In this document: in pieces, positions 1,380-40,369 of the stretch | How positions within the stretch are numbered: position 1 is the first letter of the stretch | Layout: the number at the start of each line of letters is the position of its first letter | Source of the DNA: Candidatus Avilachnospira avicola | GTDB taxonomy: Bacteria > Bacillota > Clostridia > Lachnospirales > Lachnospiraceae | DNA length: 46,615 bases | Direction of reading: 5' to 3' | NCBI GenBank assembly: GCA_018714245.1 | Contig: DVNQ01000113.1 | Coordinates: 1 to 46,615, forward strand | Position numbers and translations under genes: made by a program | Notes under the pieces: generated by a model | Told to the model about the DNA's origin: nothing | Databases searched by the model: none | Seen by the model: the letters and a program-made list of their open reading frames with translations, nothing else

Positions 1380-2414
1380 TCATCTACCGGCTTTCATGCC
1401 TAACTTAAGATTTGGTGAAGCATTGAGCTTCATATCCGCGAAGTCTCCGCGCAGATATGAGTGATAAGCTGCAGCTGCGATCATCGCAGCATTGTCGGTG
1501 CAGTATATCGGTTCAGGAAAATAACTATCCATCCCTCTCTTTCTGCATTCTTTCTCCAATTCCTTACGAAGGGCAGAATTTGCACTCACGCCTCCGGCAA
1601 TGGCTACCTTTGTGAATCCCAGTTCCTCAGCACATGCCACCGTCCGATCTACGAGCTGTCTTATCACCGCCTTCTGAAATGAAGCGGAAAGATCAGGAAC
1701 ATTTATCTCTTCTCCGGTCATATGTGCCTTGTTTATATAATTCAGCACCGCCGATTTGAGCCCTGAAAATGTAAAATCATAAGGCCTGTCCCTGACTTCT
1801 CCGATAGGGAAGCTGATCGCATTCGGATCTCCTGTCCTTGCAGCCCTGTCTATCTTGGGACCTCCCGGATAGCCAAGACCTACCGCCCTTGCCACCTTAT
1901 CATAGGCTTCACCGGCAGCATCATCCATGCTTCGTCCTATTATCTCAAAATCATCATAGTCCCTGACCACGCAGAGGTGGGTATGTCCTCCTGATACGAT
2001 CAGGCATACATATGGAGGTTCCAGTTCCTTATGGGAGATGTAATTTGCTGCCACATGGCCTTCTATGTGATGTACGGCTATAAGGGGCCTGTCAATCGCA
2101 TAGGAAAGAGCCTTGGCCTCGGATACCCCGATAAGCAGGGCCCCCACAAGTCCAGGACCTGCAGTGACCGCTATCGCATTCAGGTCCTCAAATCCTATGT
2201 CCGCATCCCTGAGTGCCATTTTTATGACTCCATTTATATTTTCACAATGGAGCCTGGATGCTATCTCAGGAACTACTCCTCCATATACCGTATGTATGTC
2301 TATCTGTGATGAAATGATATTCGAAAGGACTTCCCTTCCGTTCCTTACCACTGAGGCAGCAGTCTCATCGCAGGAGCTTTCTATGCCCAGTATCAATACA
2401 TCATTTTTATCCAT
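1380..2414 (-). CDS. tsaD: tRNA N6-adenosine threonylcarbamoyltransferase
   Basis: TsaD transfers the threonylcarbamoyl group from TC-AMP to A37 of ANN-decoding tRNAs, working with TsaB and TsaE (both encoded at 3781-5082). The protein opens with [13 protein letters not shown], the ASKHA phosphate loop, and has the metal-ligand motif HHIEGH (two His four residues apart), then [17 protein letters not shown] and [10 protein letters not shown]: the full Kae1/TsaD pattern at normal length. I prefer the ATG at 2414. The ATG at 2423 overlaps the upstream gene by four bases, and the GAGG ribosome-binding sequence is too close to it but correctly spaced for the later one. It lies between rnz and ispD and is clearly cotranscribed. 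Confidence 0.94.
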
Positions 2415-2419
2415 CAGAA

Positions 2420-3343
2420 TCATCCCTCGTCAAACATAAGCTCCTTATGCATCCCATCCTTGCCGCAGAAGGAATTCGGAAATATCTTCCTTACATCCTC
2501 AAGGTACTGCTTGGGCCTGAGCATGGAGGGGCTGTAGTGAGTAAACCAGAGCTCTCTGGGCGGTACCTCCGCCTTTGCCGCCATGGCAGCAGATTCCTGC
2601 ATCGTCATGTGCTTATATGCCCTGGCCTTGTCCTCCATACCCGGCTCTCCGTACATACCCTCACAGATAAACAGGTCTGCATCAGAAGCCGCTCTGATTA
2701 TGTTGTCACAAGGACGGGTATCCGTGGTGTAGGTCACCTTGATCCCCCTCCGGTCCTCGCCCATGACCATGGATGGCTTATATGTCCTGCCGCTAAGCTC
2801 ATCCTTAACGGTCTCTCCATGCTGAAGGGCATTCCAGTATTTTACGTCTATACCCTGTTCCTTAGCCCTTTCCACGTCAAATCTTCCCTTCCTCGGGACG
2901 GTGACGGAATATCCGTAGCAGGTAATGTTATGACTCACCCGGAAGCAGTTTATTATATATTCTCCGAGCCTGTATTCCTCAGTATTCTGATCCAGCTCAA
3001 TGAACCTGAGCTCAAAAGGAAGCTCGGGAGCTATGCATCTCAGGGATCTGGTGACATTGAAAAGTCCCTTCGGGCCTATCATGACCACGGGCTCAGTCCT
3101 TTCCGCATTTGCCATGGCAAGAAGCATTCCAGGAAGCCCGGAAATATGGTCCGCATGCATATGGGTAAAGCACATTATGTCTATGGGCTTCGGAGATATC
3201 CCCGCCTCCTTTAGGGCTATCTGGGTACCTTCGCCGCAGTCTATTATGATATTGGATCCTCCGCATCGCAGCATAAGGGAGGTAAGCCAGCGCTTGGGCA
3301 TCGGCATCATGCCTCCAGTGCCCAGCAGACAGACATCAAGCAT
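2420..3343 (-). CDS. rnz: Ribonuclease Z
   Basis: RNase Z is a metallo-beta-lactamase-fold endonuclease that cuts 3' trailers from tRNA precursors lacking an encoded CCA. The 307-residue length is standard for the short form. The zinc motif [14 protein letters not shown] places His61, His63, Asp65 and His66, and later [11 protein letters not shown] and YTTDTRPC supply further ligands; a final HYSP motif is present (WFTHYSPS). The start has a good AAGGAG site and overlaps the end of rimI by eight bases. The two serine tRNAs in this window lack CCA, so they are the kind of substrate this enzyme handles in Bacillus. Confidence 0.93.
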
Positions 3344-3815
3344 CTCCTGTCTCCTTTTCTTTTACGATAAGTTTTTCCATTATGACGGCATCCGTTATCG
3401 GATCCTTATAATAAGCCTTTCTTCTGTATATCTCCTTAAAGCCTGCCGAGGTATACAGACTTAATGCAGGGACATTGTCCTCCCTTACTTCAAGGAAAAG
3501 CCTTTCCCCTCCCTGCTCTCTGCAGAAGACTTCGGCAGTATCAAGAAGCAAGGTTCCTATGCCCTGTCTTCTGCAATTCGGGTCCACTCCTATCCGGTAT
3601 ATCTCACTGTCTGAGATGGCTGAAAATATCACATAGCCGAGAAGCCGTCCTGTATCCTTTTCTTCCGCAGTAAGGCAGCATTCGGGCCCGCAAAGAAGAC
3701 ATCTCTCAAAGCCCGGCTCTCCCCAGGGGCTGTCCGGGAACAATTCCTTATCCAATGCGGCCGCCGAAAGAAGTCCCCGCTTATCTGCCGGCTTCAGGCT
3801 TACGTTTTTTTCCAT
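3336..3815 (-). CDS. rimI: Ribosomal protein alanine N-acetyltransferase
   Basis: A GNAT-fold acetyltransferase of 159 residues. The acetyl-CoA loop RRQGIGTLLLD (about 82-92) and the C-terminal half ALSLYTSAGFKEIYRRKAYY are typical of RimI, which acetylates the N-terminal alanine of ribosomal protein S18. Its place among tsaB, tsaD and tsaE matches the common bacterial arrangement, which supports the name. The start is preceded by GGAGAG; the 5' end overlaps tsaB by 35 bases and the 3' end overlaps rnz by eight, so translation is probably coupled. Confidence 0.87.
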   Translation of the reverse strand: MEKNVSLKPADKRGLLSAAALDKELFPDSPWGEPGFERCLLCGPECCLTAEEKDTGRLLGYVIFSAISDSEIYRIGVDPNCRRQGIGTLLLDTAEVFCREQGGERLFLEVREDNVPALSLYTSAGFKEIYRRKAYYKDPITDAVIMEKLIVKEKETGDA

Positions 3816-4632
3816 GCTTCTCTCCGGTCATTTTTTTCAGGCTGTGTTCTCCCGGATCCTCCAGAAGCCCTGATTCCAGTTCTCTCTGTGCCTGGGGTTT
3901 TCTTATATAATGAGGGGCAAAATCATCCGGATCCATAACCTGATCGTCAAAAAAGTCAATGGCAGCTATCCCTTCCTCAAGCACCTCTTCAGCAGTCCTG
4001 CCATGCTCTATCAGCCATTTCTGATAGGCCCACAGCCCCAGCTGCGCGGTTGAGGCAGCTCTCTGAAGGCTGTTTTCTGCAGTTGCAAAAACATAGGAGC
4101 CCTTAAGCCTTTCCGTTATCTTTTCCCTGTATACCGGCACTCCATCTCCAAGGAAAATAAACTCCCCATTGCCATGACCAAGTCCGTTAAGTCTGTCAAT
4201 AAAATCATCCATGCTTTCCGCCCCATCTTCAATAAGGCGTATGCCCTCCCTGAATGCAGCCCTGTAGACCTGGCCTCTGCGGGCATCCATGATGGGACAG
4301 ACTGTGGCTCCGGAGGCATGGCAGAGATTGAATGCCAGAGCCTCCAGTGTGGATACCGAGATGATGGGCCTGCCAAGCCCCAGCGCCAGCCCCTTTGCAG
4401 TGGCCGCCCCTATCCTGAGTCCCGTAAATGATCCGGGGCCCGCCGATACTGCGATTGCATCTATAGAATGTTTGTCTATCCCGCAAAGCTCCAGCATCCC
4501 TGCAAGCATCGGCATCAGGGTCTCCGAATGTGTAAGCCCGTTGTTCAAGGTAAATTCGGCTCTGAGTACCTCATCTTCTATGACTGCCGTGGATGCCACA
4601 TGGCCTGAGCTTTCAATGCTAAGTATCTTCAT
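3781..4632 (-). CDS. tsaB: t6A biosynthesis protein TsaB
   Basis: TsaB is the catalytically inactive ASKHA partner of TsaD in the threonylcarbamoyl transfer complex. The product starts MKILSIESSG and carries AVSAGPGSFTGLRIG (about 61-75), the defining segment of the family, followed by STLEALAFN and CPIMDARRGQVY. At 283 residues it is longer than usual (about 220-240): the extra part is a basic tail (roughly 250-283) read through the start of rimI. The six-base gap to tsaE and the 35-base overlap with rimI indicate an operon. Confidence 0.93.
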   Translation of the reverse strand: MKILSIESSGHVASTAVIEDEVLRAEFTLNNGLTHSETLMPMLAGMLELCGIDKHSIDAIAVSAGPGSFTGLRIGAATAKGLALGLGRPIISVSTLEALAFNLCHASGATVCPIMDARRGQVYRAAFREGIRLIEDGAESMDDFIDRLNGLGHGNGEFIFLGDGVPVYREKITERLKGSYVFATAENSLQRAASTAQLGLWAYQKWLIEHGRTAEEVLEEGIAAIDFFDDQVMDPDDFAPHYIRKPQAQRELESGLLEDPGEHSLKKMTGEKHGKKRKPEAGR

Positions 4633-4638
4633 AAGATA

Positions 4639-5082
4639 TCACCGTCTTTCGATCTTTATGTCCCTGTGATCCATTCCCCTTGCAAGGTCCCTGGAAATGT
4701 ATATCCGGCAGGCCTCATCAGGTATCAGCTCCTCGATCATCTCCGGCCATTCTATGAGACATACCCAGTTTCCGAAAAAATAGTCTTCATATCCAAGCTC
4801 ATACATCTCATCCGGGTCATCGATCCTGTAGGCATCAAAATGCGCAAAGGGGATCCTTCCTCCCTCATATTCCCTAATTATGGTAAACGTAGGGCTGGTA
4901 ACATCGTCTTCTACCTGAAGCCCGCTGGCAAAGCCCTTGGCAAAAACGGTCTTCCCTGCCCCCAGATCTCCGGAAAGGAGATAGATCTCTCCCGGGGAAG
5001 CCTTTTCTCCAAGCTGTCTTCCGATAAGGAAGGTATCTTCCGCACTTTCGCTTTCAAAGCAAGTAATAAGCTGGTCCTTCAT
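4639..5082 (-). CDS. tsaE: t6A biosynthesis ATPase TsaE
   Basis: TsaE is the P-loop ATPase needed for turnover of the TsaB-TsaD complex. The Walker A motif GDLGAGKT lies at residues 38-45, followed by SPTFTIIREYEG, HFDAYRI and the LIEWPEM motif typical of the family. I place the start at the ATG at 5082 (147 residues, the usual length), preceded by GAAGGG. The frame stays open to a TTG at 5163, but that would overlap prfB and has its purine-rich site directly against the codon. It lies between prfB and tsaB on the same strand. Confidence 0.92.
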   Translation of the reverse strand: MKDQLITCFESESAEDTFLIGRQLGEKASPGEIYLLSGDLGAGKTVFAKGFASGLQVEDDVTSPTFTIIREYEGGRIPFAHFDAYRIDDPDEMYELGYEDYFFGNWVCLIEWPEMIEELIPDEACRIYISRDLARGMDHRDIKIERR

Positions 5083-5146
5083 ATTCCCTTCATATTCAAA
5101 AGTCGGTGCGATCCGCTGGACCGCACCGCCCGAAAATTCATAAGAT

Positions 5147-6289
5147 TTATTCGCTGTCAGCAACCCTTCTGTCAGGCTTTCCCAATTTGAGCCATCTGAG
5201 ATAGGCGCTGATAAAGTTGTCTATCTCTCCGTCAAGCACAGCCTGAGCATTTCCTGTCTCTTCGCCGGTACGCACATCCTTGACCATGGTATAAGGCTGA
5301 AGCACATAGCTGCGGATCTGACTTCCCCAGGCTATCTCCTTTACGTCTCCCCTGATGTCAGAAAGCTTTTCGGCATGGGCCTGCTGTTTGATCATATAGA
5401 GCTTCGAACGAAGCATCTGCATGGCTTTTTCCCTGTTCTGGAACTGGGATCTTTCCTCCTGACACGCAGTAACTATACCCGTCGGAATGTGTATGAGCCT
5501 TACTGCAGAGGAGGTCTTGTTTATGTGCTGTCCTCCGGCTCCCGATGAACGGTAGACCTCCATCTTGATATCCTTGGGGTCTATATCTACTTCTATCGTG
5601 TCATCCAGCTCCGGCATGACATCACAGGATACGAAGGAGGTCTGACGCTTGCCCTGAGCATTGAAGGGGGAGATGCGCACCAGCCTGTGGACTCCTGCTT
5701 CAGACTTCAAAAGCCCGTATGCATTCTGTCCCTCAACGGTAAAGCTCACTCCCTTTATACCTGCTTCATCGCCCTCCTGATAATCCATCACCTTGATCTT
5801 GAAGCCGTGCTTGTCACACCACCTGGTATACATACGATAGAGCATCTCATTGAAGTCCATCGCCTCTGTTCCGCCTGCACCTGCCGACAGAGCAATGATG
5901 GCATTGTTTGCATCGTATTCTCCAGAAAGCAGCTGGGCAGTCCTTTCGGTCTCAATATCAGTACGGAGTTTCTTAAGTGCTTCCCCGGTTTCCTCCGCCA
6001 GCTCTTCGTCATCCTCTTCAGAGCCCATCTCGATAAGTGTCTCTATGTCTTCATACTGGCTCACCAGGGAATGATAGGTCTCGACCGCATCCTTAAGCGA
6101 CTTAAGTTCCTTTACGATCTTTGTGGATTTCTGGGCATCATCCCAGAAATCCGGCTCTTCCATCTGTCTCTCCAGCTCTGTGATACGGTCCTTTTTGAAT
6201 TCCAGATCAAGCGATCCCCTAAGCTCCTCTATCGGAGCTTTGAGGCCTTCCAGCTCGGATTTATATGTTTCAAATTCAACTATCGCCAT
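5147..6289 (-). CDS. prfB: Peptide chain release factor 2
   Basis: RF2 recognises UGA and UAA and triggers peptide release. The stop-codon recognition tripeptide SPF is at residues 207-209 and the catalytic GGQ at 252-254 (SSGAGGQHINKT). The gene is a single uninterrupted frame of 380 codons. The site where many prfB genes carry an in-frame UGA and a +1 programmed frameshift reads AGG GGA TCG CTT GAT here (about 6204-6220): the slippery CTT and the upstream purine-rich sequence remain, but the extra T is gone, so no frameshift is needed. It lies 17 bases after secA, a common Firmicutes pairing. Confidence 0.95.
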   Translation of the reverse strand: MAIVEFETYKSELEGLKAPIEELRGSLDLEFKKDRITELERQMEEPDFWDDAQKSTKIVKELKSLKDAVETYHSLVSQYEDIETLIEMGSEEDDEELAEETGEALKKLRTDIETERTAQLLSGEYDANNAIIALSAGAGGTEAMDFNEMLYRMYTRWCDKHGFKIKVMDYQEGDEAGIKGVSFTVEGQNAYGLLKSEAGVHRLVRISPFNAQGKRQTSFVSCDVMPELDDTIEVDIDPKDIKMEVYRSSGAGGQHINKTSSAVRLIHIPTGIVTACQEERSQFQNREKAMQMLRSKLYMIKQQAHAEKLSDIRGDVKEIAWGSQIRSYVLQPYTMVKDVRTGEETGNAQAVLDGEIDNFISAYLRWLKLGKPDRRVADSE

Positions 6290-16440: not shown

Positions 16441-16451
16441 ATATCAAATAA

Positions 16452-16471
16452 GGCGGGGCCGAAGCCCCGCC
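16452..16471 (-). terminator. GC-rich hairpin after gdhA
   Basis: A perfect GGCGGGGC / GCCCCGCC stem (16452-16459 with 16464-16471) closes a tetraloop that reads TTCG on the transcript strand. The tail on the minus strand is TTATTTGATAT, so the T-run is weak. It lies 11 bases after the gdhA stop and 11 bases before the response-regulator start. It could be a leaky terminator or an mRNA-stabilising end. Confidence 0.65.
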
Positions 16472-16482
16472 CGAGTAAACGA

Positions 16483-17880
<1,398 letters not shown>

Positions 17881-20574
17881 TCAGAGAGATGAAAGCCTCT
17901 CTTCCACAGTCTTCAGCATATCCTCATACTTGAGCTTTTTCTGCCGTTCCTCCTCTACCTTTGCGGCAGGGGCCTTTGAGATGAACCTCTCATTTGAGAG
18001 CATGGATTCGGATCTCTTAAGCTCTGAAAGCAGCCTGCCCTTTTCAGAAAGCAGACGGGCCCTTTCCTTTTCCGTATCCACAAGCTCTGAAAGCGGCATA
18101 TAAACGGTTGCTCCGTCAATGACCGCGGAAACGGAATTGTCCGGTATATCCGAAGCCTCGCAGGTGACTGAAAGTCCGGATGCACCGCAGAGAAGACCGA
18201 ATATGTCCTCAGCTCCGTCAAAGGTCGAGGCGATGTCCCTGTCCTTTGCCAGTATGAAAACCTGGGCCTTTTTCTTTACGGGCACGTCCATCTCCTTACG
18301 TACGGTCCTTACTGCCCTTACGGCTGATTTTACGTTTTCTATGCTGTTCTCCTCAGCCTTAAAGCAGAACTCTTCCCTCTTTTTCGGATATTCGGAGATC
18401 ATGATGGACTCCTCATCCGTAAGGCTGTCAAATATCTCCTCAGTAATGAAAGGCATGAAGGGCTGAAGGAGCTTGAGCGAATCTACCAGCACGGTCTTGA
18501 GAGTCCAGAGCGCTGCTTCCTTCGAAGCCGGATCCTCTCCGTAAAGCCTGGGCTTTACCATCTCGATATACCAGTCACAGTATTCATTCCATATGAAATC
18601 CGTAACATTGTCAAGAGCTATGCCTAGCTCAAAGGAATCCATGTTGGAAGCTATCTTCTCATTCAGCTCATTGACCTTGGAAAGTATCCACTTGTCCGGA
18701 AGCTCCAGCTTCATACCCTCAGGTATGGAGCCTTCCCTGCCGCTCTTTCCCGCATTCCTTATCACGTCGCGGATGCCGTCTCCCAGCTCTTCCTCAGTTT
18801 TTTCTATGTTCATCATTATGAACCTTGCAGCATTCCATACCTTGTTTGCAAAGTTCCGTTCATTTTCCACCTTTTCCCAGTAGAAACGCATGTCATTTCC
18901 GGGGGCGTTGCCGGTAAGCAGCGACGCTCTCAGGGCATCAGCTCCGTATCTGTCGATGACCTCTATGGGATCTATGCCGTTTCCGAGGGACTTTGACATC
19001 TTCCTTCCCTCTGAATCCCTTACAAGACCATGTATCAGTACCGTATGGAAGGGACTCCTGCCGGTCTGTTCCACTCCGGAAAATACCATCCTGATGACCC
19101 AGAAGAATATGATGTCGTATCCCGTTACAAGTACGTCGGTGGGATAGAACTTTGAAAGGGTCGGTGTATCATGGGGCCATCCCATGGTAGAGAAGGGCCA
19201 GAGCGCTGAGGAGAACCAGGTGTCCAGCGTATCCTCATCCTGGGTAAAGCTCCTGCCTCCGCACTTGGGACATACTGAAGGCATCTCCTTCGAAACTACG
19301 ATCTCCCCGCAGTCATCACAGTAGTATGCAGGTATCCTGTGTCCCCACCAGAGCTGTCTGGAAATGCACCAGTCACGCATGTTGTTGACCCAGTTGAGAT
19401 AGGTCTTGGAATAGTTTTCGGGAACGAACCTCAGTTCTCCGGATTCAAGCACCTTCCTGCAGTCCTCTGCAAATTTATCCATCCTTACGAACCACTGGGG
19501 CTTGATCATGGGTTCTATGGTGGTACGGCACCTGTCATGGATGCCTACGCTGTGTGAGTGGGGAACCACCTTTACCATAAGCCCCTCTGCCTTAAGGTCC
19601 TCCACCATGGCCTTCCTGGCCTCATAGCGATCCATCCCGTCATATTTTGATCCGGGGCAGTCTATGGTGGCATCATCATGCATTATGCAGATCTCCGGAA
19701 GCCCATGCCTTCTTCCCACCTCAAAGTCATTGGGGTCATGAGCAGGAGTTATCTTCACGCATCCTGTTCCGAATTCCTTATCCACATATTCGTCGGCTAT
19801 GACAGGGATCTCCCTGTCAGTAAGTGGCAGCCTGAGCATCTTGCCCACAAGATCCTTATACCTCTCATCGGAAGGATTGACCGCAACCGCCGTATCTCCA
19901 AGCATGGTCTCCGGACGGGTGGTAGCGATCTCCACGTATCTGCCTTCCTCTCCGACTATCGGATAGTTTATATGCCAGAAAAATCCCTCCTGATCCTCAT
20001 GCAGTACCTCTGCATCCGAGATCGAGGTCTTGCATACGGGGCACCAGTTTATGATACGGCTGCCCTTATAGATATATCCTTTTTCATAAAGTTTGATAAA
20101 TACCTCGGTAACCGCCTCGGAACAGCCTTCATCCATGGTAAAACGGAGTCTGTCCCAGTCAGCGGATGCTCCAAGTTTTTCAAGCTGTCCGAGTATCCTG
20201 CTTTCGTACTCCTCTTTCCAGGCCCAGGCCTCCTTAAGGAAGCCTTCTCTTCCCAGGTCCTGCTTTTCTATGCCTTCCTTCTTAAGCTTCTCTATGACCT
20301 TGACCTCAGTGGCTATCGCAGCATGATCGGTGCCGGGCTGCCAGAGCACTTCATAGCCCTGCATCCTCTTATATCTACAGAGTGCATCCTGAAGGGTATT
20401 GTCCAGAGCATGGCCCATATGAAGCTGTCCGGTTACGTTGGGCGGCGGCATGACGATGGAGAAGGGCTTTTTGTCCGATGTTTCATCGGCATGAAAATAC
20501 CCCATCTTCTTCCATCTCTGATATATCCTCTTTTCCATCTCCTGAGGTTCGTATGTCTTTGAAAGCTCTGTCAT
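17881..20574 (-). CDS. valS: Valyl-tRNA synthetase
   Basis: ValS charges tRNA-Val and edits mischarged threonine. The 897-residue protein has the class I signature HMGH (52-55) within PPPNVTGQLHMGHALDN, the CP1 editing segment TTRPETMLGDTAVAV (218-232), zinc-type cysteine pairs (CPVC, CDDC, CPKC), KMSKS at 525-529, and a C-terminal coiled coil. No T-box leader is present in the 68 bases upstream, unlike many Firmicutes synthetase genes; it depends on the upstream operon for transcription. An unrelated three-gene set precedes it. Confidence 0.97.
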   Translation of the reverse strand: MTELSKTYEPQEMEKRIYQRWKKMGYFHADETSDKKPFSIVMPPPNVTGQLHMGHALDNTLQDALCRYKRMQGYEVLWQPGTDHAAIATEVKVIEKLKKEGIEKQDLGREGFLKEAWAWKEEYESRILGQLEKLGASADWDRLRFTMDEGCSEAVTEVFIKLYEKGYIYKGSRIINWCPVCKTSISDAEVLHEDQEGFFWHINYPIVGEEGRYVEIATTRPETMLGDTAVAVNPSDERYKDLVGKMLRLPLTDREIPVIADEYVDKEFGTGCVKITPAHDPNDFEVGRRHGLPEICIMHDDATIDCPGSKYDGMDRYEARKAMVEDLKAEGLMVKVVPHSHSVGIHDRCRTTIEPMIKPQWFVRMDKFAEDCRKVLESGELRFVPENYSKTYLNWVNNMRDWCISRQLWWGHRIPAYYCDDCGEIVVSKEMPSVCPKCGGRSFTQDEDTLDTWFSSALWPFSTMGWPHDTPTLSKFYPTDVLVTGYDIIFFWVIRMVFSGVEQTGRSPFHTVLIHGLVRDSEGRKMSKSLGNGIDPIEVIDRYGADALRASLLTGNAPGNDMRFYWEKVENERNFANKVWNAARFIMMNIEKTEEELGDGIRDVIRNAGKSGREGSIPEGMKLELPDKWILSKVNELNEKIASNMDSFELGIALDNVTDFIWNEYCDWYIEMVKPRLYGEDPASKEAALWTLKTVLVDSLKLLQPFMPFITEEIFDSLTDEESIMISEYPKKREEFCFKAEENSIENVKSAVRAVRTVRKEMDVPVKKKAQVFILAKDRDIASTFDGAEDIFGLLCGASGLSVTCEASDIPDNSVSAVIDGATVYMPLSELVDTEKERARLLSEKGRLLSELKRSESMLSNERFISKAPAAKVEEERQKKLKYEDMLKTVEERLSSL

Positions 20575-20642: not shown

Positions 20643-21449
20643 TCAGAGCATCCGCCTGTAAGCCTTTTTCATATCTCCCAGAAGCTTTGCAGCCTCCTGC
20701 TGAGCACTCCTGGAATCCTTTCTGAACATATCCTCCAGCTCTGAAATCTGCCGTCCGGATAATATCTTAAGTTTAAGTTCTTCTTTCCTGCTGTCAAGCA
20801 TTTTTTTATCATCATCGGAGATGTCAGCTTCACCGGTAAGCAGGTGTTTCATCTCCCTGGCCCGTTTTGTCTTAATGGAAAGTTCAGACTGAAGTATGAG
20901 CTCAAGGGCCTTTTTATCCTCAAACATAAGGATCTTTATGACTGCCATGTCAAGATAGCAGTCCGCCTTCAGGCGAAGCAGCTCCTCCCTCCTGGCCGGA
21001 TCCTGGGACCTTCTCAGCCTCTCATCCGCGCAGGCGGCAGCCTCACCATATTTTTCAAATGCAGGACCAAGTCTGTCTGCCTTGAAGTATCCGGCTGCAC
21101 AGGCCCGCAGATATTCCTCCCTGTCGTAGCGGCTTATCTCCACCAGCCTGTCCATATATGCATTTATCTCTTCCCTGCCGTAATACCCGAAATGGGTAAG
21201 TATCATAAGCAGCAGATTGTCCTCCGTCTCTCCTGAAGCCCTGGCTTCGGCAAGCTTTCCTGAAAGCTCCTTTTCCTGGAGTTCCTTTCCTATCCAGCTG
21301 ATTATGTCCTCGGAGACAGCACCGTCAGTGACCATCAGCGGGTAATTATAGATCAGATAACAGAGCTCCTGTGCAGACCATATGCGCAGATTGAGCTTTT
21401 CATAAAAAAACGGTATCAGTGCCTGTTGTTTGCAAAGTATAAGTGCCAT
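20643..21449 (-). CDS. Uncharacterised helical protein, third gene of the DUF5716/DUF5717 set
   Basis: I do not recognise a named family. From the ATG at 21449 the product has 268 residues and starts MALILCKQQALIPFFYEK. It is almost entirely predicted helix, with a TPR-like middle (about 100-200: EEYLRACAAGYFKADRLGPA, then a cluster of basic and acidic helices) and a charged C-terminal coiled coil. No signal peptide or membrane span is present, so it is cytoplasmic. Its ATG shares one base with the TGA of the DUF5716-like gene (TGATG), so translation is probably coupled. The frame stays open another 43 codons upstream, but that stretch is out-of-frame DUF5716 sequence. It probably acts with the two preceding products. 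Confidence 0.72.
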   Translation of the reverse strand: MALILCKQQALIPFFYEKLNLRIWSAQELCYLIYNYPLMVTDGAVSEDIISWIGKELQEKELSGKLAEARASGETEDNLLLMILTHFGYYGREEINAYMDRLVEISRYDREEYLRACAAGYFKADRLGPAFEKYGEAAACADERLRRSQDPARREELLRLKADCYLDMAVIKILMFEDKKALELILQSELSIKTKRAREMKHLLTGEADISDDDKKMLDSRKEELKLKILSGRQISELEDMFRKDSRSAQQEAAKLLGDMKKAYRRML

Positions 21450-22675
21450 CAGAAATCCATCTCCGATACGATCTCGGCTCCTGTAGCCGGGAAAAATTCT
21501 CCAAATCCCATGTCCCTGAGTCTGATCTCCATATCTGACTGTCCGATAAGGCTCAGATCCATGGATATCCTGGTACACCTTTCAGGCCTTACCGGAAGTT
21601 CCAGTTCCTTAAGCCCTACGGTCCTTGATATCCTTGATTTATGCCTGTCTGAAGGATAGATGTCTATCTCTATTCCATCCTGTCTGTAGGGTATGAACTC
21701 CACATGAGCACTGTACCCATACCAGGGGATGCCTGCAGGCGCCAGCACCAGTCTGCTCTGTCTTCCCGCCACAATGACATTCATGCCTATCTCCGAAGTC
21801 ATCCTGGAATCACAGAGCATCAGGATGTCCTCATTTGCCCCTGAAAGCTCTTTTGCTGCATAAATCTCTGCGCCTCTTGCAAAGAGCCCGTCCTCATATA
21901 TGACTCTTTTCCTCCTGCATATATATTCCTTGAATTCCTCTGCCCATTCAAGATCCTCAAAGCCTTTTCCTGTCAGAAATACGGAGGAGAATATCTTTTT
22001 ATCCATCAGCTTCCTGGCACATTCGGCAATGATATGATCTGCCAGTTTCCTTCCTGAGTCCGTCTTCAGGACATCCAGATGAAATGCCTCCTCCAGATCT
22101 GTCCCTTCACAGGAAGCATTCAGTCTGCTGAGCCCTCTTATGACCCTGAATTCATAATATGAAAAGGAATCCTCGGAAAGATCATAAAGGCCTACAAGGT
22201 TATTGTACAGCTCCTTATCCCCCTTAAGCACATAGTGCATGAAGGCCTCCGCATGGCTGGCTATCCTGAAGCTGCCCTTTTTGAGTCCCATCTCAGCAAG
22301 AGCCTCAGATACCGTATCCATAAGCAGCCTGTCCGGTCTGTGAAGGACCAGGCAAAGCCTGTCTATGTCTGCTATGGTCTGCTCGCCAAGGGCAGTCTCA
22401 ATGGCCATCCTGAGAAAAACCGTGCACAGCTCAACGGAGGTATACGTCCTGCCTCCGACCGTCGACCTGCCCTCCTTCTTCATAAGCGAAACCAGCTTAT
22501 CCGTAAGGACTCCCTGTCCTGACAGGGCTTTTCTGTAGGCCTCCTCGCCGATATACCAATATTCATTTTTCTTTTCCCTGCATATGACCGTCGGCATGTA
22601 CTCCGGAGCTTCCGCTCCTGACACATATACCATGGTATAGTCATCGCAAAGATCTATTCCAACTGTTAATGCCAT
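21449..22675 (-). CDS. Hsp70/actin-fold-like protein (DUF5716-like)
   Basis: A 408-residue cytoplasmic protein whose motif order follows the Hsp70/actin ATPase fold. A phosphate-1-like VGIDLCDDYT is at 5-14; RIASHAEAFMHYVL (137-150) matches the position of Hsp70 INEPTAAALAYGL; VGLYDLSEDSFSYYEF (161-176) matches the phosphate-2 strand; SVFLTGKGF (231-239) and GLFARGAEIYAA (263-274) match the adenosine region. The glycines of phosphate 2 (GGGT) are replaced by LSEDS, so ATP hydrolysis may be lost. A C-terminal beta-rich part (about 300-408) follows. I believe this is the family catalogued as DUF5716, from memory. It is three bases after the DUF5717-like gene. Confidence 0.72.
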   Translation of the reverse strand: MALTVGIDLCDDYTMVYVSGAEAPEYMPTVICREKKNEYWYIGEEAYRKALSGQGVLTDKLVSLMKKEGRSTVGGRTYTSVELCTVFLRMAIETALGEQTIADIDRLCLVLHRPDRLLMDTVSEALAEMGLKKGSFRIASHAEAFMHYVLKGDKELYNNLVGLYDLSEDSFSYYEFRVIRGLSRLNASCEGTDLEEAFHLDVLKTDSGRKLADHIIAECARKLMDKKIFSSVFLTGKGFEDLEWAEEFKEYICRRKRVIYEDGLFARGAEIYAAKELSGANEDILMLCDSRMTSEIGMNVIVAGRQSRLVLAPAGIPWYGYSAHVEFIPYRQDGIEIDIYPSDRHKSRISRTVGLKELELPVRPERCTRISMDLSLIGQSDMEIRLRDMGFGEFFPATGAEIVSEMDF

Positions 22676-22678
22676 AAG

Positions 22679-25198
22679 CTATTCCCTGATCTCAAATAAG
22701 CCTCTCCGCTCTCCGTCAGTAAGGATATAGTTCTTAAGATCCTCCTGAAGCTCTGAGAGCCTTGCTTCCTTCAGTTCCTTGGTCATACGGTCGAGCATCG
22801 AGTATCTGTCCTCTTCCCTGCTGTGCAGCTTCTTTACGCTGATGCTTCCCTCCTGTACCGTGGAGTCCGATATGCTGTCATCGTAGATCATATAGTGAAG
22901 CTCATCCTCCACGAAAAGGATGGTGCTCATCACATATATCCCTCCGTATACCCTTACCATCTCTTCCCGATGATATTCATCATCTTCGGGAGATATCTTT
23001 ACATAGAGCCTGGGAGCCGAATCCCTTTCTCCGTGATATTCGATATAGTACCGTTCGCATATCTCCTTGGGTATGGATATCTTTTTCTTAAGAGCCTTGG
23101 TATATCTGAATATCAGTCCCTGTCCTATAAGTATGTCACAGAGTTTCTGGCAGAGCTCCGCCTCATCATCAAGGAGCCTGTCCTTTTCCTCATAATGTTT
23201 GGTAAGGGCCAGCAGATAGATATCAGGAAGCTTTCCGTAGTCCTCTGCCGAGCTTACGTAGGAATAAAGTATCTCAAAGAACTGATCCGGAAGGCTGTCA
23301 TCCTCCCTTTCGAAATAATCATCGCACCTGATGGTGAGATATGCACGTATGATGGCTTCCTTCTGCTCGCATCTCCGGATGTATATCTCAAAGCTCTCAT
23401 CCAGATCATTGAAGGATGAGGCGAACAGCTTGGCCGTAAGTACTTTTTCCGGAAGCTCATATACCTCAAAGGAAAGAGCATCAGCCCTTCTGAGTATATC
23501 AAGCATCTCATCCGTAGGGCCCTCATATGCCCGGCATAAAAACTCCAGCACCTCCCGGTCTTCGCATCCGGCATCAAATGCCTCCTTGCACAGAGCCATG
23601 AAAAAGGTATCGGTCTCTCCCTTTACCGTGGGTATGCTGCCCGTCTTTATCAGCGATACCGCAAGGACGGAAAGATCCTTGCTTTCCGCCGTGGAAAGTC
23701 CATATCTCCTGAGCTTCAGATAGGCATCCTCAAAATAGCCGTCATAAAGGAGAGCATGGAAGAGAAGGCTCCTGATATCGCTGCCATAGGGATCAAGATC
23801 CAGGGACCTGAAGGTCGCAGAGCCTCCCTCTCTTTTGCAGAGGGCCTTTATTATCTCTTCCCTGAAGGACAGCGACAGCCTGAGCTTTTCAAAGCTGTCT
23901 CTCAGTATCTCCGCCTCAGTATCATTTTCCACACCCTTTTTAAGCACATTCCTTGCAGCTGCAAGCTTGAGCATTGGGTGATCCGGATATATCTCAAAGC
24001 ATCTCCGTAAAAGGTCAGGCCTCTCAAGGAGGCTTTCCTTTTTAAATGCTATGTCCTTAAGCACCCTTCCATTCCTGTCGGCAAAGCCTATCTCCGTATC
24101 CTCAAAATAGACAGGCACGTAAGCCGCACCTTTTTTTACGGGAAATCTCTCTTCGTAGGCAAGCTCCGGAAAATGAAGCACCACTGACCTTACCCGCTCA
24201 TCCTCCAGGGATATGCGGCAGGATTTCAGGATGTCCGGTAGTATCTCCGCCGCTTTCCTGTCTATCATGTTGGGATAAAGCACATGATCGTAGATCACCG
24301 CAAGCCTTTCATCGATACGTCTCTCAAAAAGGGCTGACATGCAGAGATCCCTTATCTGGGGCTCATAGGAGGCGAAAAGCTCAGAATCCTTATCCTGATA
24401 AAGAAGCACGTTTTCATATATCAGAGCCTTCCTCTCAGGATCAAGGGTATTGTCATAGGAAAAATACAGGAGCACGCTCCTTGGCATCTCCTCATGAAGC
24501 TCATCCGGATATGCATAGATATAGTATTCATAAAGCCTGGTAAGCTCTATGTCCCTTGCCACGGCCTCCTTATATACTGAAAATGCAAACCCATCCGTAC
24601 GGTCACCGTTTATGAGAATGCCGCAGAGCTCCTCAAGGAGCTCGTCATCCTCCGGAAGGTTGGACAGGATGAATCTGAGGAACTCTCTTTCTACGGTCTC
24701 CTCTTCGTCCGCAGCCGCATCCTCCAAGGAAGTCTCTGGTTCCACGGGATATGCTGCATCCTCCTTGAGGATATCCTGGGAGTTCACATCCGAAGCGGAG
24801 ATATCCGCCTCCTCTGCAGACTCCTCCTGCAGGGCTTCCTGCATCTGATCCGGCATAGATGCCACCTCAAAGCGATAGGGTATGGAAAACTCTCCCGCAT
24901 TGGTTATAAGGTGGAGTGCGCCTGTTATCTCACTTCCGGGTGCCTTGAAAGAGGTGTCCGCATAAAACACCACATGACAGCGTCTTCCCATAAAGGCCCT
25001 GGTCTCAAGGCCTATATCCGCGTCGTCGGAATAGCACAGGCCCTTGAGGCTCAGCCCCGAATCGGAATCTATGATCAGGTCATATTTTCTTTTTGTATCT
25101 GAAGGTATAACATCATCAAATCTCTCCGGATGAAGCCTGATCATCGGTTCATCCCGATCTATGATGCCCTTCGCAAGTCTGTTTATCTTTTCACGCAT
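22679..25198 (-). CDS. Large helical-repeat protein (DUF5717-like)
   Basis: From the ATG at 25198 the product has 839 residues. Residues 1 to about 110 look like a beta-sandwich domain (REKINRLAKGIID...GALHLITNAGEFSIPYRFEV). An acidic linker (about 115-165, many Glu/Asp/Ala) follows, then a long alpha-solenoid (about 165-730) and a small mixed C-terminal domain (LYVKISPEDDEY...). There is no signal peptide or membrane helix, so it is cytoplasmic. I recall this architecture under the name DUF5717, found in Lachnospiraceae next to DUF5716; no function is known to me. The TTG at 25219 is possible but has no ribosome-binding site. It is the first gene of a long leftward run; an AT-rich promoter region lies at 25220-25270. 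Confidence 0.72.
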   Translation of the reverse strand: MREKINRLAKGIIDRDEPMIRLHPERFDDVIPSDTKRKYDLIIDSDSGLSLKGLCYSDDADIGLETRAFMGRRCHVVFYADTSFKAPGSEITGALHLITNAGEFSIPYRFEVASMPDQMQEALQEESAEEADISASDVNSQDILKEDAAYPVEPETSLEDAAADEEETVEREFLRFILSNLPEDDELLEELCGILINGDRTDGFAFSVYKEAVARDIELTRLYEYYIYAYPDELHEEMPRSVLLYFSYDNTLDPERKALIYENVLLYQDKDSELFASYEPQIRDLCMSALFERRIDERLAVIYDHVLYPNMIDRKAAEILPDILKSCRISLEDERVRSVVLHFPELAYEERFPVKKGAAYVPVYFEDTEIGFADRNGRVLKDIAFKKESLLERPDLLRRCFEIYPDHPMLKLAAARNVLKKGVENDTEAEILRDSFEKLRLSLSFREEIIKALCKREGGSATFRSLDLDPYGSDIRSLLFHALLYDGYFEDAYLKLRRYGLSTAESKDLSVLAVSLIKTGSIPTVKGETDTFFMALCKEAFDAGCEDREVLEFLCRAYEGPTDEMLDILRRADALSFEVYELPEKVLTAKLFASSFNDLDESFEIYIRRCEQKEAIIRAYLTIRCDDYFEREDDSLPDQFFEILYSYVSSAEDYGKLPDIYLLALTKHYEEKDRLLDDEAELCQKLCDILIGQGLIFRYTKALKKKISIPKEICERYYIEYHGERDSAPRLYVKISPEDDEYHREEMVRVYGGIYVMSTILFVEDELHYMIYDDSISDSTVQEGSISVKKLHSREEDRYSMLDRMTKELKEARLSELQEDLKNYILTDGERRGLFEIRE

Positions 25199-25276
25199 CT
25201 TCGTTCTCTTTTTCCTCAAATGTAAAAATAAACAAAGTTAATATATTTTATCATACTTTATATCTTGCCGCCACAG

Positions 25277-25304
25277 AAAAAGGACGCAAGCCTGCGTCCT
25301 TTTT
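25277..25304. terminator. Bidirectional terminator between the HAD gene and the DUF5717-like gene
   Basis: Arms GGACGCA (25282-25288) and TGCGTCC (25293-25299) are flanked by five A and five T residues, giving a symmetrical hairpin. On the minus strand it ends the HAD phosphatase transcript, which stops at 25327. It isolates the DUF5717 operon from what is upstream. Confidence 0.88.
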
Positions 25305-39540: not shown

Positions 39541-40200
39541 TTAGGCTGTAGCCTCACGTTTGATCCTTTTAAGTGCAGAATTAACTGCAGGTATGCTGAT
39601 TATGATCACTGTAATGATCACCTCAGCCCCTATATATATAATGTTATATACCATGGAATAAGGAACAGGATACCAGCCCTCCCAGATCACGCTTCCAAGA
39701 GCCACCCATACAAGTCCGGCTATGGTCGCCATCAGCCATCTTCCGAAGGCAGCCACCAGATATCCGATGAGGAGCCCGTTTTTCATCCTGCTGAAAAATC
39801 CGGCTACACCCATGATCATAAATGCAAAGATATAGTCAAACAGGAACTGGGGCACCGTAAGGAAATAGGGCCCGAGAAGGAACTGGATAAGTCCATAGAT
39901 CAGTCCGCAGAGTATGCCTGTGGAAGGTCCGTAGAACCAGGCAGGAAGCATGGCAAAAAGCATGCTGCAGAGAGTGACTGAGCCGCCGTAGGTAAACTCA
40001 AAGACCTTTATCATGCTGGTCACTGCGGCAAGAGCTATGCACATGCTGCAGAAGGTAAGCTGCTTTGCAGCAGAAGCCCCGTGCTCTCCGTGCCCCTTGA
40101 GTACGGCAAACACACAGATCAGAAGCAGCAGTATCAGGGCAACGGCAGCCGTATATCCGGCACCGGTGAGCCCGCCTTCAGCATTAATAAACATTGACAT
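39541..40200 (-). CDS. thiT: Energy-coupling factor thiamine transporter S component
   Basis: ThiT is the thiamine-binding membrane subunit of a group II ECF transporter; the ATPase and T subunits are shared and must be encoded elsewhere. The 219-residue protein has about six membrane segments and the family core FEFTYGGSVTLCSMLFAMLPAWFYGPSTGILCG, followed by GLIQFLLGPYFLTVPQFLFDYIFAF, with the aromatic residues that bind thiamine. The TPP riboswitch directly upstream confirms the substrate class. The start ATG is five bases after AAGGAGG. Confidence 0.92.
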   Translation of the reverse strand: MSMFINAEGGLTGAGYTAAVALILLLLICVFAVLKGHGEHGASAAKQLTFCSMCIALAAVTSMIKVFEFTYGGSVTLCSMLFAMLPAWFYGPSTGILCGLIYGLIQFLLGPYFLTVPQFLFDYIFAFMIMGVAGFFSRMKNGLLIGYLVAAFGRWLMATIAGLVWVALGSVIWEGWYPVPYSMVYNIIYIGAEVIITVIIISIPAVNSALKRIKREATA

Positions 40201-40205
40201 AAAAA

Positions 40206-40345
40206 ACCTCCTTCGAAACTAAGGAGGGGCATGAAACATGGACTCGCAAAGCAAATCCATAAGCTTCCCTACGCAGGCATTATCCTGTTCAGGTCATGAG
40301 GGACCGAGGCAAAAGCCTCCATCTCAGCATAAAGCGCCCCTAGCC
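40206..40345 (-). promoter_or_regulatory. TPP riboswitch (THI element) of thiT
   Basis: The minus strand carries the conserved THI-box parts: GGGGCGC (40334-40340), CTGAGAT (about 40320-40326), CCTGAACAGGATAATGCC and GCGTAGGGAAG (ending near 40262). These form the two sensor arms of the TPP aptamer. Downstream, a hairpin with arms CCTCCTT and AAGGAGG (40206-40226) both holds the ribosome-binding site of thiT and is followed by five T residues. The element should switch thiT off when thiamine pyrophosphate is bound. The promoter lies at 40370-40397. Confidence 0.95.
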
Positions 40346-40369
40346 TTGTATGTGATTATTTACATGACA

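Follow-up and report, generated by a model that had tools for sequence, protein, structure and literature searches.

We describe three genes of Lachnospiraceae, one of the major bacterial families of the gut. The genes, named S (DUF5717), B (DUF5716), and T, lie on the 46,615-nt contig DVNQ01000113.1 of Candidatus Avilachnospira avicola (assembly GCA_018714245.1; hereafter the window). Our main finding is that B is a dead Hsp70 and that it is, as judged from sequence trees, a descendant of one member of a cluster of four Hsp70 genes found in related families. The first-pass annotation had described the trio; we add that S-B-T appears to be the remnant, near-universal in the family, of that cluster, which also holds a GrpE-domain gene and a fusion of Hsp70 to a von Willebrand A (vWA) domain. 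A near-universal and nearly always single-copy Lachnospiraceae gene of no known function, accompanied by two steady neighbors, thus turns out to be an Hsp70 that has lost its catalytic residues. The lineages form a rare evolutionary series, from catalytic Hsp70s to a dead paralog beside them and then to the dead one alone, and therefore allow a direct test of what an Hsp70 does without its ATP cycle.

22679..25198, minus strand: gene S (DUF5717); 839 aa counted from its ATG start at 25198, with the frame open as far as a TTG at 25219; N-terminal block, acidic linker, body, and C-terminal DUF5717 domain
21449..22675, minus strand: gene B (DUF5716), 408 aa; nucleotide-binding domain (NBD) without subdomain IIB, linker, beta-part of the substrate-binding domain (SBD-beta), no lid
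20643..21449, minus strand: gene T; 268 aa with the ATG at 21449 taken as its start, the longest open reading frame beginning at a GTG at 21578; conserved N-terminal block and shortened region resembling tetratricopeptide repeats (TPR)

The three open frames lie where the first-pass annotation had drawn them, all on the minus strand, and their tight coupling was borne out by a gap of 3 bases between S and B and an overlap of 1 base between B and T (TGATG).

Gene B, a degenerate Hsp70

B matches PF18980 (DUF5716) at 3.4e-74, with 249.9 bits against a curated cut-off of 34.7, and S matches PF18984 (1.1e-104, 351.5 bits) and PF18983 (4.1e-62, 210.5 bits) against a cut-off of 25, so that the names DUF5716 and DUF5717 given in the first-pass annotation were correct. 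The Pfam lines for DUF5716 and DUF5717 say only "family of unknown function", no NCBIfam model matched S, B, or T up to E 1, and a literature search returned nothing for DUF5717 and, for DUF5716, only a paper on MMR pathways and curcuma.

The homology of B to Hsp70 is firm. It is visible only with profiles, since the single sequence P0002 reached a best E value of 0.93 against the PDB sequences; none of 34 Lachnospiraceae members of the B family matched PF00012 at E 0.01, and the cluster ortholog of B in Defluviitalea matched it at 1.8e-14. A profile built from the family proteins only recovered Hsp70-A of the larger cluster with 83.5% probability, over the NBD half only. The alignment of the B profile to Hsp70 continues past the NBD through the hydrophobic interdomain linker and SBD-beta, and B is thus kin to Hsp70 itself, beyond the actin fold in general. 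The first-pass annotation had proposed a degenerate Hsp70 fold that lacks the phosphate-2 loop, to be given up if a confident model showed no ASKHA fold. The structure model of B (predicted local distance difference test score, 94.9) contains an actin-type NBD that superposes on the NBD chains of DnaK and Ssz1 with a root mean square deviation of about 3 across 260 to 280 residues, and the PDB entry 7kru aligns with 380 of the 408 residues of the model. Among the best 50 rows of the structure comparison are Ssz1 (5mb9, 6sr6, 4gni, and 7x3k) and the Hsp110 Sse1 (3c7n, 3d2e, and 2qxl), Ssz1 ranking third, within 1 Z of the top.

All Hsp70-type motifs quoted in the earlier annotation are present in B. 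The residue counts show that the catalytic residues have gone. In the numbering of Escherichia coli DnaK (the reference row of the alignment being the DnaK of the window's own genome), K70, E171, and T199 are V, H, and S in the window protein, and the GGGT phosphate-2 loop reads SEDS. None of 16 Lachnospiraceae B proteins keeps K70, E171, or T199, and two keep D201; D8 (15/16) and D194 (12/16) mostly persist, both of them in the window protein. The same loss is seen in 13 B proteins from clusters of related families, with K70, E171, T199, and D201 in none and D8 and D194 in 11 each, whereas D8, T11, K70, E171, D194, G196-198, T199, and D201 are kept in 10/10 Hsp70-A, 10/10 Hsp70-C, and 9/9 Hsp70-D proteins. 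B therefore died while it still stood beside living paralogs. The adenosine-site arginine R345 does not set B apart, because it is also gone from A (0/10), C (0/10), and D (0/9).

Subdomain IIB is the second loss. The profile alignment leaves a gap in B opposite DnaK residues of about 224 to 317 of 4rtf_D, and the corresponding span measures 7 residues in the window protein, 5 to 7 in 11 of 16 family proteins, 15 to 42 in the other five, and 52 to 59 in the 13 cluster proteins. B of the window thus shares with DnaK the actin-type NBD, the hydrophobic linker, and SBD-beta and differs from it in having lost the ATPase residues, the GGGT loop, IIB, and the lid. Such a protein can hardly serve as an ATP motor any more.

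The partners are less readily classified. S had been described as an alpha-solenoid with a beta-sandwich front, a putative architecture that is only indirectly favored, by weak matches to PDB entries (TPR proteins and non-catalytic protein 1), the best, to a designed TPR protein, at E 0.044. The PF18984 match in S falls into two pieces, an N-terminal one (profile positions 1 to 114) and the body (527 to 871), with the middle (about 115 to 526) unmatched. This pattern recurs in all but one of the 25 genus genomes; the exception, G010, has just a piece of the N-terminus, situated where its contig ends. The pattern is consistent with the shorter S of the genus, where frames are mostly 816 to 903 aa versus about 1100 to 1230 elsewhere in the family. 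T has no Pfam match above the cut-off, and the window protein alone gives no Pfam TPR match. The earlier description of T as TPR-like nevertheless holds, as a designed TPR protein is matched at 5.6e-27 once 31 family members are combined into a profile, and homologs of T in the full clusters carry TPR matches in Pfam. The cytoplasmic location proposed for the three proteins also stands: the highest 19-residue hydropathy is 1.07 to 1.13 in each, and the scan gave no transmembrane segment in S, B, or T.

A four-Hsp70 cluster and its probable remnant

Other families of the order carry a larger locus composed of S, Hsp70-A, X (a GrpE-domain protein), Hsp70-B, Hsp70-C, Hsp70-vWA (D), and T, the gene order in the fetched loci being read from mechanical open reading frame calls and profiles built for this analysis. 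Ten cluster proteins, from Defluviitalea phaphyphila (L042, the same stretch as L068) and L032, were searched with Pfam. In the scanned cluster, DUF5717 is split into two genes, Hsp70-A and Hsp70-C match HSP70 at 6.2e-78 and 1.6e-63, X ends in a GrpE domain (7.1e-11), Hsp70-B matches both DUF5716 (2.2e-33) and HSP70 (1.8e-14), Hsp70-D combines HSP70 (8.1e-92) with VWA (7.1e-10), and T carries TPRs (2.7e-20). With 58% identity or more taken to define a true Hsp70-A, the matches listed include 51 such loci, of which 21 show S-A-X-B-C-D-T in this order and 37 have S next to A; named carriers among them are D. phaphyphila, Petrocella sp. FN5, and metagenome-assembled genomes of Ca. Epulonipiscium. 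With its three intact Hsp70s, of which one carries a vWA domain, its GrpE-domain protein, and its TPR-type members, the ancestral cluster resembles an undescribed dedicated chaperone machine, and our literature search found no paper on it.

Some features of these clusters deserve mention in their own right. Hsp70-D (L042:4787-6862 and homologs) consists of an Hsp70 NBD and SBD-beta followed by a C-terminal vWA domain. Hsp70-A proteins (e.g., L042:12037-13716) end in a conserved tail, TELSVD(E/D)LY, as read from 12 of the 63 tails; its placement, though not its sequence, is reminiscent of the tail by which eukaryotic Hsp70 binds TPR proteins, and the cluster has TPR-type proteins. Family f4 has both Hsp70-D and T broken into two frames (L032:5788-6384, 4340-5824, 3205-4231, and 2099-3238), and a stop lies inside the match to the neighboring gene U, as though the cluster were undergoing decay in this family. 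A second kind of multi-Hsp70 cluster occurs in several phyla, in Peribacillus, Desulfobacterales, Oscillibacter, Selenomonadaceae, and Lachnospiraceae SIG304 (L119, L122, L125, L126, and L127); L126 has four Hsp70s, one with a PIN-domain match, beside an AAA ATPase, and in a quick tree ten Hsp70s from L119, L122, and L126 group with neither A nor D nor the B/C clade.

The descent of B was read from two trees, a quick one of 69 Hsp70s and a careful one of 62, from which L108_B, L109_B, L110_B, L114_B, L037_B, L129_B, and L129_C, chiefly long branches, had been left out. Both trees recover A, C, and D as separate clades. The careful tree unites the Lachnospiraceae proteins in a single clade (100/97), with B of family f4 as its sister (100/100), and places this clade inside B (100/100), whose own sister is C (100/100); in the quick tree, B without the Lachnospiraceae rows is not a single clade. 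Approximately unbiased (AU) tests, applied to groups picked after the tree had been seen, rejected the grouping of the Lachnospiraceae proteins with one Hsp70-C (p 2.3e-6) or with DnaK (p 1.9e-10). On these sequence trees, the Lachnospiraceae protein is a descendant of the cluster Hsp70-B.

Within the family, the remnant is kept with great constancy. Of 298 family genomes with a completeness of 90% or more, 295 carry PF18980, covering 277 of 280 genera, with two copies in four genomes and one in the rest; among 398 genomes drawn from the phylum it occurs in five, our own included, all from Lachnospiraceae. In a sample of relatives, DUF5716 is present in 36/37 family genomes and 11/24 genomes from other families, and DUF5717 in 37/37 and 12/24; the family genome without DUF5716 is G010. 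In the eleven genomes behind the named loci, matches are strong in 3/3 from Lachnospiraceae/Eisenbergiella, weaker in 3/3 full-cluster carriers, and absent from the five others, a pattern from which we take the family to be Lachnospiraceae. The first-pass annotation had made its grouping depend on the genes being neighbors in related genomes, and the order S-B-T is indeed kept in 34 of 36 family loci; a contig end truncates the remaining two.

The intact Hsp70s have disappeared from the family genomes checked. PF00012 matches two proteins of our own genome, DnaK and, weakly and only in part, one with a length like that of MreB, and no live A, C, or D was found in 15 family genomes (our own and fourteen others) searched for HSP70. 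Seven long HSP70 matches from the fourteen, each of which might have been A, C, or D, score best as DnaK-like or HscC-like proteins; for short fragments, only score and location served to class them. The best matches to X across these 15 genomes, found in four of them, reached only 19 to 25 bits, most of them adjoining DnaK matches as expected of the housekeeping GrpE, versus scores of 655 and 257 in the cluster genomes G059 and G039. GrpE contacts subdomain IIB of Hsp70, which makes the joint loss of X and IIB suggestive.

S, B, and T have been inherited together. Their trees (21 loci) have 12 to 14 of 18 splits in common, the genus is a clade in those of S (100/100), B (100/99), and T (100/100), and their distances correlate beyond that of the neighboring valS (partial r 0.69-0.74, 66 non-independent pairs). 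Median identity within the genus is 38% for S, 45% for B, and 34% for T versus 75% for valS. For the closest pair, L045/L055, the ratio of nonsynonymous to synonymous substitution rates (dN/dS) is 0.26 for S, 0.19 for B, 0.22 for T, and 0.11 for valS, at dS values of 1.11, 0.99, 1.61, and 0.72, respectively; other pairs of S, B, and T (dS 1.33-2.11) were left unused. In this pair, the three genes are under purifying selection.

A putative ATP-independent scaffold and its alternatives

On balance, we favor the view that S-B-T is the surviving core of an ancestral multi-Hsp70 machine in which B acts as an ATP-independent, Hsp70-shaped scaffold or adaptor. B is already without its ATPase residues in the larger cluster; in the Lachnospiraceae genomes checked, the intact Hsp70s and the GrpE-domain gene are missing and B has shed most or all of IIB as well, with S-B-T staying together in order and B nearly universal. 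B would no longer go through an ATP-driven cycle of grip and release and may form a fixed module, an NBD core plus a lidless SBD-beta, in a stable complex with S and T, and could hold or present a client through SBD-beta, the likely client site, and its former docking surfaces. It would then be a scaffold or adaptor and not a motor, by analogy with Ssz1 in the ribosome-associated complex. A stronger claim, which we put forward tentatively and consider somewhat less probable, is that of a family-defining core complex: an Hsp70 without ATPase, GrpE-contact subdomain, or lid would have outlived its former neighbors, the catalytic Hsp70s and the GrpE-domain protein, and would now serve, independently of ATP, as a chaperone or a scaffold for assembly that practically all members of the family need.

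Several observations weigh against this view. D8 and D194 persist in the window protein, which could thus still bind ATP, and Ssz1 has been solved with ATP (4gni); the loss of IIB is uneven, with the five family proteins of longer span. Divergence within the genus is fast, unusual for a universal scaffold, and the distance correlations, coming from non-independent pairs, may reflect a shared fast rate. Three of the 298 family genomes, G468, G521, and G527, have no DUF5716 match. As for the ancestral cluster, the Hsp70-A loci other than the 21 either run into an end or are less complete, and in L084, L092, and L098, with flanks of 10 kb to left and right, A stands by itself. No J-domain is among the matches listed for S, B, T, and the ten cluster proteins, which makes the parallel with the ribosome-associated complex incomplete. 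Finally, the complex, the client, and the loss of ATP binding are putative.

Ssz1 appears to be the closest working parallel of B. It keeps subdomain IIB. Like B as we picture it, it is an atypical Hsp70 in an obligate complex, yet it partners with the J-protein Zuo1, whereas the neighbors of B are DUF5717 and a TPR-like protein; its role in the ribosome-associated complex is described in PMC8476630, PMC7083937, and PMC9197937.

The main rival makes S-B-T a co-chaperone of the housekeeping DnaK, with B binding clients or nascent chains and handing them over in the manner of Ssz1 or Hsp110. DnaK is the only true Hsp70 found in our own genome, Ssz1 and Sse1 are among the best structural matches of B, the interdomain linker and SBD-beta persist, and the frequent adjacency of valS hints weakly at translation. 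However, neither a J-domain nor a GrpE domain is among the matches listed for S, B, and T, valS adjoins the trio in 20 of 36 loci only, and the Hsp110 mode of nucleotide exchange relies on a helical extension that B does not have. We regard this alternative as unlikely.

More improbable is a role of S-B-T in assembling the envelope or the cytoskeleton, with U, a coiled-coil neighbor with two transmembrane segments, as its anchor in some species. U comes after T in 7 of 36 family loci and also in some of the full clusters, and U of L046 has two hydrophobic stretches. Yet U was not found in any of 25 genus genomes, and eight genomes from other families have U (in one of the eight a weak match with stops) but no DUF5717 match, so U is an independent gene, and S, B, and T themselves have no transmembrane segment. 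U as an obligatory partner was rejected on the same counts.

The nearest published parts lists are those of the GAP1-N2 HSP70/GrpE systems and the Hsp70s of CoCoNuTs (PMC7159879 and PMC11090510). PMC7159879 describes an HSP70 theme in which HSP70 and GrpE stand with a second, shortened HSP70 that has no peptide-binding domain and with FN3 proteins that carry a fused DnaJ or TPR, a likeness in parts to the four-Hsp70 cluster. CnuD of CoCoNuTs, according to PMC11090510, has an Hsp70-like NBD/SBD with degenerate Walker-like motifs, along with HEAT-like repeats. GAP1-N2 systems are sporadic and CoCoNuTs have a McrB-type GTPase/nuclease, whereas B is near-universal in its family and no such protein is found among the proteins scanned here; no GTPase or GAP1 domain is among the matches listed for 10 cluster proteins and, in the window, for 6 proteins and then 8 more, the rest of the genome not having been searched for it. 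That S-B-T is a domesticated defense module, the remnant of an NTP-dependent conflict system still sensing invaders or damage, is suggested by these two likenesses but highly improbable, given that B is near-universal and nearly always single-copy, that S-B-T is co-inherited when defense genes are typically patchy, and that the matches listed for the ten scanned proteins of the cluster include no GTPase, nuclease, or MoxR domain, a negative that does not extend to the PADLOC library.

A correlation with spore traits, raised by the first-pass annotation, did not hold up. SpoIVA occurs in 0/25 genus genomes, in which PF18980 is present in 24/25, and a spore role of S-B-T is therefore unlikely and was rejected for this genus; in other genera of the family, SpoIVA is present in 7/12 genomes and PF18980 in 12/12.

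Transcription context and neighboring elements

25277..25304, minus strand: terminator-like hairpin upstream of S, directly after the preceding HAD gene
17881..20574, minus strand: valS (PF00133, 6e-144), 68 bases downstream of T
16483..17820, minus strand: gdhA (PF00208/PF02812), last gene of the putative transcription unit
16451-16472: strong hairpin (folded), directly 3' of gdhA

The first-pass annotation had S start a transcription run that also feeds valS and gdhA, which would fit the sequence. The upstream hairpin, folded and checked by letter, has a stem of 12 bp, a loop of 4 nt, and Ts at its end; the initial terminator scan did not include it, its stem perhaps using up the Ts. When the gaps between T and valS and between valS and gdhA were folded, neither gave a hairpin with a T-run. 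With hairpins upstream of S and after gdhA and none with a T-run in these internal gaps, a single five-gene unit, S-B-T-valS-gdhA, is plausible. Across 36 family loci, the next labeled gene after T is valS in 20, U in 7, and none or the locus edge in 9; we consider valS a frequent neighbor that lies outside the proposed complex. Control of valS by a T-box acting via the trio was rejected: the window has no T-box at the gathering score, and L035 has one upstream of valS.

Two RNA elements were also recorded. A Clostridiales-1 RNA match lies a few kilobases upstream of the S locus in one member of the genus (L063:11-172), and the window contains a thiamine pyrophosphate (TPP) riboswitch (Rfam; 40249-40351, minus strand) upstream of a YuaJ-type thiamine transporter gene (39541-40200).

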